Positions 31,824 through 33,931 of a DNA stretch of 64,000 bases are shown here, piece after piece (position 1 is the first letter of the stretch; each line of letters begins with the position of its first letter). This DNA is from Lysobacter luteus (lineage in GTDB: Bacteria; Pseudomonadota; Gammaproteobacteria; Xanthomonadales; Xanthomonadaceae). Both the position numbers and the translations under genes were made by a program. The notes beneath the pieces were generated by a model, which worked only from the letters and a program-made list of their open reading frames with translations, searched no databases and had not been told where the DNA came from. The DNA lies in contig NZ_OU015430.1 of NCBI RefSeq assembly GCF_907164845.1, positions 1,540,001 through 1,604,000 on the forward strand. Reading direction: 5' to 3'.

Positions 31824-32756
31824 TCAGCCGGTCGGCTTGCCCACCGGCAGGACCGGATTGGCGATGCCGTGCGGGACGTGGCCGGCGGTCACCAGCCCAC
31901 GGGCCGACTCGATGTTGTGCTCGGAGTCGTCGAAGAAGATGTCGGCCCCGAACGCGTCCAGGAACGGGCCTTTCGGCCGGCCACCGAGGAACAGCGCCTC
32001 GTCCAGCCGGATGCCCCATTCGCGCAGCGTCCGGATCACCCGCTCGTGTGCAGGCACCGACCGTGCAGTGACCAGCGCGGTACGGATCGGCGACGCCTCG
32101 CCGATCGGGAATGCCGCCTGCAGCCGGTGCAGTGCGTCCAGGAACCCGCGGAACGGCCCACCGGAAAGTGGCTCACCTGCGCGCGTGCGCTCGTGCTCGG
32201 CAAAGGCCTCCAGCCCACCCTCGCGCGATACCCGCTCGCCCTCGTCGTCGAAAATGACGGCGTCACCATCGAACGCGATCCGCAACTGGTCATGCCGATG
32301 CTGCGGCGCCTTGGCCGGCAACAGCGTGGCCGCCGCGACCCCCGCTGCCAGCGCGCTGCGCACGTCCTCTGCATGGGTCGACAGGAACAGGTCGGCACCG
32401 AACGGGCGGATGTAAGGAAAAGGCGGAGCGCCATTACTGAACGCGGCACGCCGGATCGAGAGGCCGTGGTGGGCGATGGAATTGAAGATGCGCAGCCCGG
32501 TGTCGGCCGAGTTGCGCGAGATCAGGATCACCTCGACCCGCGGCGCATCAGGCGGTGACCCGTCGTTGAGGCCCAGCAGTTTGCGCACCAGCGGGAAGGC
32601 CACGCCCGGTTCAAGCAGGTCGTCCTCGTGGCTGCGCTGGAACGCGGCGTAGGCATCGAGGCCCTCACGCTCGAACAGCGTGTGGCTGTCCTCGAGGTCG
32701 AACAGGGTGCGCGAAGAGATCGCGACAATCAGCGGATCGGCTTGTGCGTCGGGCAT
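31824..32756 (-). CDS. cN-I type 5'-nucleotidase
   Basis: The 310-residue HAD-superfamily protein resembles the bacterial 5'-nucleotidase family related to cytosolic nucleotidase I. Visible features are VAISSRTLFDLEDSHTLFEREG, VEVILISRNSADTGLRIFNS, FLSTHAEDVRSAL, RIAFDGDAVIFDDEGE (HAD DxD-like) and IFFDDSEHNIESARG. It dephosphorylates nucleoside monophosphates. Upstream lies the repeat-rich 400-bp gap. Confidence 0.88.
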   Translation of the reverse strand: MPDAQADPLIVAISSRTLFDLEDSHTLFEREGLDAYAAFQRSHEDDLLEPGVAFPLVRKLLGLNDGSPPDAPRVEVILISRNSADTGLRIFNSIAHHGLSIRRAAFSNGAPPFPYIRPFGADLFLSTHAEDVRSALAAGVAAATLLPAKAPQHRHDQLRIAFDGDAVIFDDEGERVSREGGLEAFAEHERTRAGEPLSGGPFRGFLDALHRLQAAFPIGEASPIRTALVTARSVPAHERVIRTLREWGIRLDEALFLGGRPKGPFLDAFGADIFFDDSEHNIESARGLVTAGHVPHGIANPVLPVGKPTG

Positions 32757-32855
32757 GGAGCCATTCTGCAGGATCGCGGTCTCGTGGGATGAGAACGGTG
32801 TGCGTGTGGTGCGTTTTGGGGGTTGGTGGGGATGGGGTGCGCGGGGGCCCGGGCC

Positions 32856-32906
32856 GGGTAGCCCGCAAAGTCGCTCCCCGATACTCGCTTGGTTTGCGGG
32901 CTACCC
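32856..32906. repeat. Hairpin with 14-bp perfect stem (left flank of repeat cluster)
   Basis: A perfect 14-bp inverted repeat (GGGTAGCCCGCAAA at 32856-32869 and its complement at 32893-32906) encloses a 23-nt loop. The loop (with the adjacent stem base, 32869-32892) is the reverse complement of 33057-33080, the loop of the right-hand hairpin. Confidence 0.85.
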
Positions 32907-32935
32907 GCCCCGCGCCTTCAACATTCGGGGTGGTT

Positions 32936-33012
32936 GTAGGAGCGGCTTCAGCCGCGATCGTGGATTGGCGGCAGCATCCAACTATCCAGATCGCGGCTGA
33001 AGCCGCTCCTAC
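32936..33012. repeat. REP-like inverted repeat, 24-bp arms
   Basis: Arms at 32936-32959 and 32989-33012 are perfect reverse complements over 24 bp and start GTAGGAGCGGCTTCAGCCGC. This is the repetitive element commonly seen between genes of Xanthomonadaceae and some pseudomonads. The 29-bp centre is unique. Confidence 0.9.
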
Positions 33013-33041
33013 AAGATCGCGGGGACGTCGGAGGCGGCCTT

Positions 33042-33094
33042 CGGGCAGGCCGATCACCAAGCGAGTATCGGGGAGCGACTGATCGGCCTGCCCG
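33042..33094. repeat. Hairpin with 15-bp perfect stem (right flank of repeat cluster)
   Basis: CGGGCAGGCCGATCA at 33042-33056 pairs perfectly with 33080-33094, and the stem can extend with one mismatch on both sides. Its loop complements the loop of the hairpin at 32856-32906. Together with the central REP this fills most of the 401-bp gap (32757-33157), where I see no gene. Confidence 0.85.
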
Positions 33095-33157
33095 GAGGCC
33101 GCTCGCGCGCATCCACGCGCTCTTCAGTCGCAAACCCGCGAAAGCTCCATCCGACCG

Positions 33158-33931
33158 CTATCCGCTAGTGAACTGCTCCGCCAGGATCCGGTCCTCGAGG
33201 TTGTGCTCGGGGTCGAACAGCAGCGTCACCGTGCGGTCGTGCGACTCGCGGATGGTCACTTCCACCACGTCGCGAACCTCGTGCGAATCGGCGGTTGCGC
33301 TGACCGGCCGCTTGTACGGATCAAGCACGCGGAACCGGACCTCGGTGTCGGCCTTCAGCACGGCGCCGCGCCAGCGCCGGGGCCGGAACGCAGCGATCGG
33401 GGTCAGTGCCATCACGTTGGCCCCCAGGGGCAGGATCGGCCCGTGGGCAGAGAAGTTGTACGCCGTACTGCCGGCGGGCGAAGCGACCAGGACGCCGTCG
33501 CAGATCAGCTCGTCCAACCGGATCTGGCCGTTGAGCGCGATCGACAGGTGCGCCGCCTGGCGCGTCTGCCGCAGCAACGAGACCTCGTTGTAGGCGAGCG
33601 AGCCGACGCTGGCACCGGATTCGGTTTCCGCCAGCATCTCCAAGGGGCGCAGGACCGCGGGCTCGGCGGCATGGATTCGCTCGAGCAGGCCGTCAAGCGC
33701 CAAGTGGTTCATCAGGAACCCGACGGTCCCCAGCTTCATGCCATACACCGGCTTGCCGAGGCCGCCGTGGCGGTGCAGCGTCTGCAGCATGAAGCCGTCG
33801 CCACCCAGGGCAACCAGTACCTCGGCATCCTCGGGCGGCACGTCGCCGTGCCGGTCGACCAGCTTGGCGCAGGCGGCCTGGGCGTCGTCGGCGGTACTTG
33901 CCAGGAAGGCGATGCGGGGCGTCGCGGTCAT
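33158..33931 (-). CDS. nadK: NAD kinase
   Basis: This 257-residue enzyme phosphorylates NAD to NADP. GGDG (43-46, in [10 protein letters not shown]), the NEVSLLR segment and [19 protein letters not shown] are the diagnostic ATP/NAD-kinase motifs. The protein is slightly shorter than Escherichia coli NadK but complete. It lies downstream of, and separated by a terminator from, the glutamate dehydrogenase. Confidence 0.95.

Follow-up and report, generated by a model that had tools for sequence, protein, structure and literature searches.

A hairpin family conserved in its loop

A 23-nt apical loop, CCAAGCGAGTATCGGGGAGCGAC, and not the stem beneath it, is the conserved part of what is apparently a patchily distributed, undescribed family of bacterial DNA hairpins. 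Two members lie in the window, the 64,000-nt stretch of the Lysobacter luteus genome (contig NZ_OU015430.1) analysed here. The left hairpin (32846..32916) and the right hairpin (33033..33103) match a covariance model trained on 49 diverse hairpins with 78.3 bits (genome 1572846-1572916) and 84.2 bits (genome 1573033-1573103), and their functional strands are inferred to be - and +, respectively. The left arms (32846-32869 and 32893-32916) are complementary at 22 of 24 positions and the right arms (33034-33056 and 33080-33102) at 22 of 23; the 14-bp and 15-bp stems described in a first-pass annotation of this DNA are the innermost perfect stretches. The left loop (32870..32892) reads CCAAGCGAGTATCGGGGAGCGAC on the - strand, and the right loop (33057..33079, + strand) is likewise conserved across the copies in this genome and in other genomes. 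The 24-bp complementarity between the loops that the annotation claimed is real: the two 23-nt loops are exact reverse complements, or 25 nt counting the closing A-T pair. They are the only matches to the loop in the window when up to 3 mismatches are allowed, where 100 shuffles gave an expectation of 0.

The loop is not unique to the window. The 2.77-Mb genome holds exactly 7 copies, arranged as inverted pairs at 672 kb, 1573 kb (this window) and 1988 kb and a single at 630 kb. Each tips a stem at least about 20 bp long whose sequence varies from locus to locus. Run over the genome, the covariance model recovers the same 7 copies at 74-91 bits, with the next best match at 18.4 bits. The exact 23-mer also occurs in 111 stretches of other genomes, mainly from Luteimonas, Lysobacter and Thermomonas; the betaproteobacterium Zeimonas and a few metagenome-assembled proteobacteria also carry it. 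Among sampled genomes it is carried by 23 of 198 in the family and 4 of 200 in the order, and none of 368 other genomes of the class contains the conserved-loop family. Ten congeners have 7, 9, 4, 6, 7, 35, 5, 0, 0 and 0 hairpins; in one genome, G198, the hairpin forms part of an amplified unit of about 130 nt (a consensus estimate) with clear edges. These copies and matches exclude the possibility that the loops are unique and unconserved, and they support the earlier suspicion of a repeat class less usual than a plain REP, and show it to be conserved as well. In a search of literature text, six 13-nt pieces of the loop turned up in a single paper, an unrelated one.

Two side observations concern variation within the family. 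A lineage-wide loop variant, GAATATCGTGG for GAGTATCGGGG, is present in G109, G152, G169, G185 and most G198 copies, and there are minor forms too. The variant is common to copies at different loci, as if the loop had changed in concert with its recogniser. In several of the loci L070, L073, L077, L109, L110, L145, L151, L162, L165 and L166, some of them from metagenome-assembled Pseudomonadota, the stem below its variable upper part is fixed and has an internal loop (GCCCTTGCGGC / GCCTCCGGGC), possibly a second conserved feature.

The nadK spacer and its central REP dimer

The module sits in the intergenic spacer at 32757..33157 (401 bp, or 404 nt including the nadK stop codon), between genes for a 5'-nucleotidase (31824..32756, - strand; PF06189, E 4e-124) and NAD kinase (33158..33931, - strand; profile matches to PF20143 and PF01513). 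The spacer had been singled out as the only gene-free gap above 300 bp, which we could not confirm, as a crude GC3-based gene caller leaves other gaps, some of which perhaps hold missed genes. Eight of nine congeners lack the whole module and have just 42-139 nt between nadK and the 5'-nucleotidase gene; in the ninth, about 1.3 kb of other DNA separates the two genes. Because the shorter spacers of relatives lack the whole module at this site, we rejected the idea that loops were inserted into ready-made palindromes. A related genus has its own hairpin pair in the same nadK spacer, with different stems.

Between the two outer hairpins lies a REP dimer (32934..33014) made of two inverted copies of GTAGGAGCGGCTTCAGCCGCGATC. 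The first-pass annotation treated all three hairpins as one elaborate REP with 24-bp arms at its centre. The central element is indeed a REP, although its arms are slightly longer (26 bp perfect, 32934-32959/32989-33014), but the composite does not hold, since the middle hairpin is a separate GTAG REP dimer of the ordinary kind, has a RAYT of its own and is unrelated to the outer family. It carries the GTAG tetranucleotide at the hairpin foot, has about 40 similar places in the genome, and occurs as the same dimer on both sides of a RAYT gene (genome 393232-393507). Its sub-threshold matches to Rfam microRNA models (MIR7526) probably stem from the perfect palindrome. A second RAYT gene (genome C1:1192261-1192584, L178) lies between inverted copies of a AACAGGGGTCAGAGTCGACTTTC-like motif, an arrangement that resembles the TIR-flanked RAYTs (TIRYTs) of PMC3733652.

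As RNA, the right hairpin is predicted to fold on the + strand with 24 uninterrupted pairs (-56.6 kcal/mol, z -6.7), and the best predicted fold of the left hairpin is on the - strand (-52.1 kcal/mol, z -4.7). Taken as one strand, the whole module has a long-range fold as its predicted minimum (-207 kcal/mol). The loop-loop pairing proposed earlier could therefore form, but as a by-product of the inverted copies. Kissing or long-range pairing between loops is not a feature of the family, because about half of the sampled hairpins (97 of 180) stand alone, lacking a second copy within 400 bp, and some of the rest form direct repeats. The complementarity seen here would arise wherever two hairpins with the same conserved loop lie in inverted orientation.

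Where hairpins are paired, the loops are mostly about 90-190 bp apart, and dimers without a third neighbour are divergent in 32 cases, convergent in 4 and direct in 6. The family thus has the inverted intergenic dimers of fixed polarity typical of BIMEs and REPINs, though with the many isolated copies just described.

Known repeats and the search for a partner

Like GTAG REPs and their BIME and REPIN dimers, the outer hairpins are short intergenic palindromes that form inverted dimers and tandem arrays, vary patchily in copy number and are presumably non-autonomous. However, a GTAG REP combines a stem of 5-13 bp with a GTAG tag and a RAYT partner (PMC3733652), whereas the outer family has freely changing stems of 20 bp or more, a conserved loop and no RAYT link. 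The conserved stem sequence that marks GTAG REPs is not found here, as all 24 pairs vary and the loop is conserved instead. By inspection, no GTAG stands at the foot of the outer hairpins in the A1 consensus or the aligned flanks. For the E. coli TnpA_REP, SELEX on the REP loop gave no preferred bases (PMC8266576).

CGTC-tagged REPs, which occur mostly as inverted dimers and for which no dedicated transposase has been found (PMC3733652), are alike in these respects and in being palindromic; yet they have stems of 8-9 bp, loops of 4-5 nt and a CGTC tag, against stems of at least 20 bp and a 23-nt loop here. MITEs with terminal inverted repeats are also non-coding, and their inverted ends recall the paired form. 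Their TIRs are conserved at the element ends, however, while here the conserved part is a hairpin loop and singles are common. Finally, template switching reportedly makes the arms of a repeat alike and inverts the spacer (excerpts of PMC8604942), and it reportedly creates and maintains hairpins (excerpts of PMC8794818). The hairpins it produces share homogenised arms and an inverted spacer with ours, but they reflect a mutational process, whereas the spacer here is conserved across genera and two proteobacterial classes.

No trans-acting partner of the outer family was found among RAYTs, reverse transcriptases and neighbouring genes. The REP-type transposase that had been proposed as an associate is not linked to it: RAYTs show neither linkage nor co-occurrence, with no PF01797 match in three congeners that have 5-9 hairpins and a match in one hairpin-free congener. 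At six RAYT loci of the genus there was no conserved-loop hairpin; one covariance model match (L290) proved to be an ordinary GTAG REP with a different loop and only ACCAAGCG in common. A reverse transcriptase (PF00078) was rejected as mobiliser, as it occurs only in a hairpin-free congener. Recognisable ORF clusters at about 110 loci, mostly housekeeping genes and antisense frames, included no recurrent neighbouring transposase, nor could we recognise a recombinase gene where hairpins cluster densely in G198. A phage or plasmid origin was dismissed. The module has no match in phages and the exact loop is absent from viral contigs; of three looser loop matches in those contigs, the two inspected were unrelated sequence without a stem. 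Plasmids gave chance-level matches only.

Probable selection on the loop and candidate explanations

Among the 49 sequences of the alignment, all 24 stem pairs change on both sides, and most show four or more standard pair types. Paired cells make up 97.6% of the stem alignment, compared with 51% after shuffling and 34-44% when the arms are slid. Covariation does not by itself prove selection, as template switching is also able to make the arms alike. Selection is indicated instead by two other patterns: the loop changes far less than the stem, and stem mismatches are strand-asymmetric. In 14 comparisons of hairpins at matching sites, the copies having been found partly through loop matches and partly through the covariance model, 58 of 616 stem sites differ (9%) against 3 of 322 loop sites (1%), and 21 stem pairs of orthologous hairpins are altered on both sides. 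Stem wobbles counted on the strand whose loop contains CCAAGCG are G.T in 52 cases and C.A in 14 (70 non-redundant hairpins), and the bias holds per hairpin (34 G.T against 6 C.A, p = 8e-6) and in the genus set, whose hits were taken from the covariance model (76 against 8). Since the wobbles favour G.T over C.A there, the CCAAGCG-loop single strand is probably the functional form under selection; wobbles of this kind fit single-stranded DNA and RNA alike. Loop positions 9 and 15, and 3 and 23, change together, which suggests that the loop is folded.

Hairpins sit between housekeeping genes in either orientation. Relative to codirectional neighbour genes, 26 have the same and 30 the opposite orientation, that is, no preference, in a count that used stricter codon-position filters but still rested on crude gene calls that included antisense open frames. 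Downstream of adk and trpE, different species carry the loop flipped within homologous stems, and at the purF site one homologous palindrome has the alternative loop variant in inverted orientation. The same intergenic sites are occupied across species, some of different genera: L071, L067, L147 and L293 at glyA; L295, L181 and L238 at pgk; L242, L160, L133 and others at purF. Such sites are either insertion hotspots or old copies whose stems have been replaced.

We hypothesize, with the balance of belief falling just short of even, that the hairpin is a REP/BIME-like non-autonomous element whose single-stranded loop is read by a putative factor, with template switching largely responsible for keeping the stems paired. 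Recognition would rest on the apical 23-nt loop in single-stranded form, and nothing but pairing would be required of the stem. Polymerase template switching between the arms would keep them complementary and flip the loop. A putative trans-acting protein (a nuclease, transposase or hairpin-binding factor) would read the loop on single-stranded DNA, spreading the element as a non-autonomous unit and keeping the loop unchanged. That a factor probably reads the loop follows from its near constancy while stems vary freely yet stay paired. Mobility is supported by the range of 0-35 copies among congeners, the amplified G198 unit and the absence of the module in 8 of 9 congeners. However, the loop is intact in orthologous copies with diverged stems, which purely selfish copies would not need, and we established neither a target-site duplication nor an exact insertion boundary for the outer family; both count against this reading, as does the failure to find a trans-acting partner among the genes searched. 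We put forward as doubtful the stronger proposal of an interspersed element class in which the loop is read in trans as a single strand and inverts in place via template switching, the stem is a sequence-free scaffold, and a putative new recombinase or binding protein serves the element.

We regard it as unlikely that the family is instead an RNA element, in which the CCAAGCG strand is transcribed, an RNA-binding protein or a pairing RNA engages its loop, and the hairpin acts on messages at gene ends and between cistrons by stabilising, processing or attenuating them. The tolerance of G.U on one strand and the linked loop changes fit such a role, as do the many copies in housekeeping operons that lie no more than about 100 nt from a gene end; between hslV and hslU, for example, the Thermomonas loci examined have the sense hairpin on the strand of the operon. 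Against it stand the lack of an overall orientation preference and the sites downstream of adk, trpE and infC, each of which is occupied in opposite orientations. In addition, the window's gap has no promoter-like or terminator-like pattern; a scan of the window copies for an intrinsic terminator (a hairpin, with loops of 3-8 nt, followed by a T run) found none in 32700-33200; and Rfam models gave the module only sub-threshold matches, none of note and none at gathering score.

A host DNA site, where the hairpin, whether extruded or single-stranded, would serve as the target of a chromosome-organising or replication protein and be retained for this function, would explain why the loop is conserved in place among orthologues and why intergenic sites at purF, glyA, pgk, nadK and hslV are occupied in different species; absence from three of ten congeners and from most of the family, with copy numbers from 0 to 35, makes it improbable. 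It is very improbable that the hairpins are mutational relics, neutral palindromes kept perfect by template switching alone with loops identical through recent copying: stems have turned over between sister species, and paired double changes and spacer inversion can arise without selection (excerpts of PMC8604942 and PMC8794818), but in the same orthologous copies the loop accumulates changes at about one tenth of the per-site frequency of the stem, and a wobble asymmetry tied to loop orientation is unexpected without selection.

The stem or the foot is what usually defines interspersed palindromes in bacteria; conservation of the loop alone, above stems that covary throughout, points to a factor that reads a folded single strand. 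The compensated stem changes and loop flips between sister species also make the family a natural archive of apparent template switching. Its uneven representation, from 0 to 35 copies among congeners, allows a comparative search for a partner gene.
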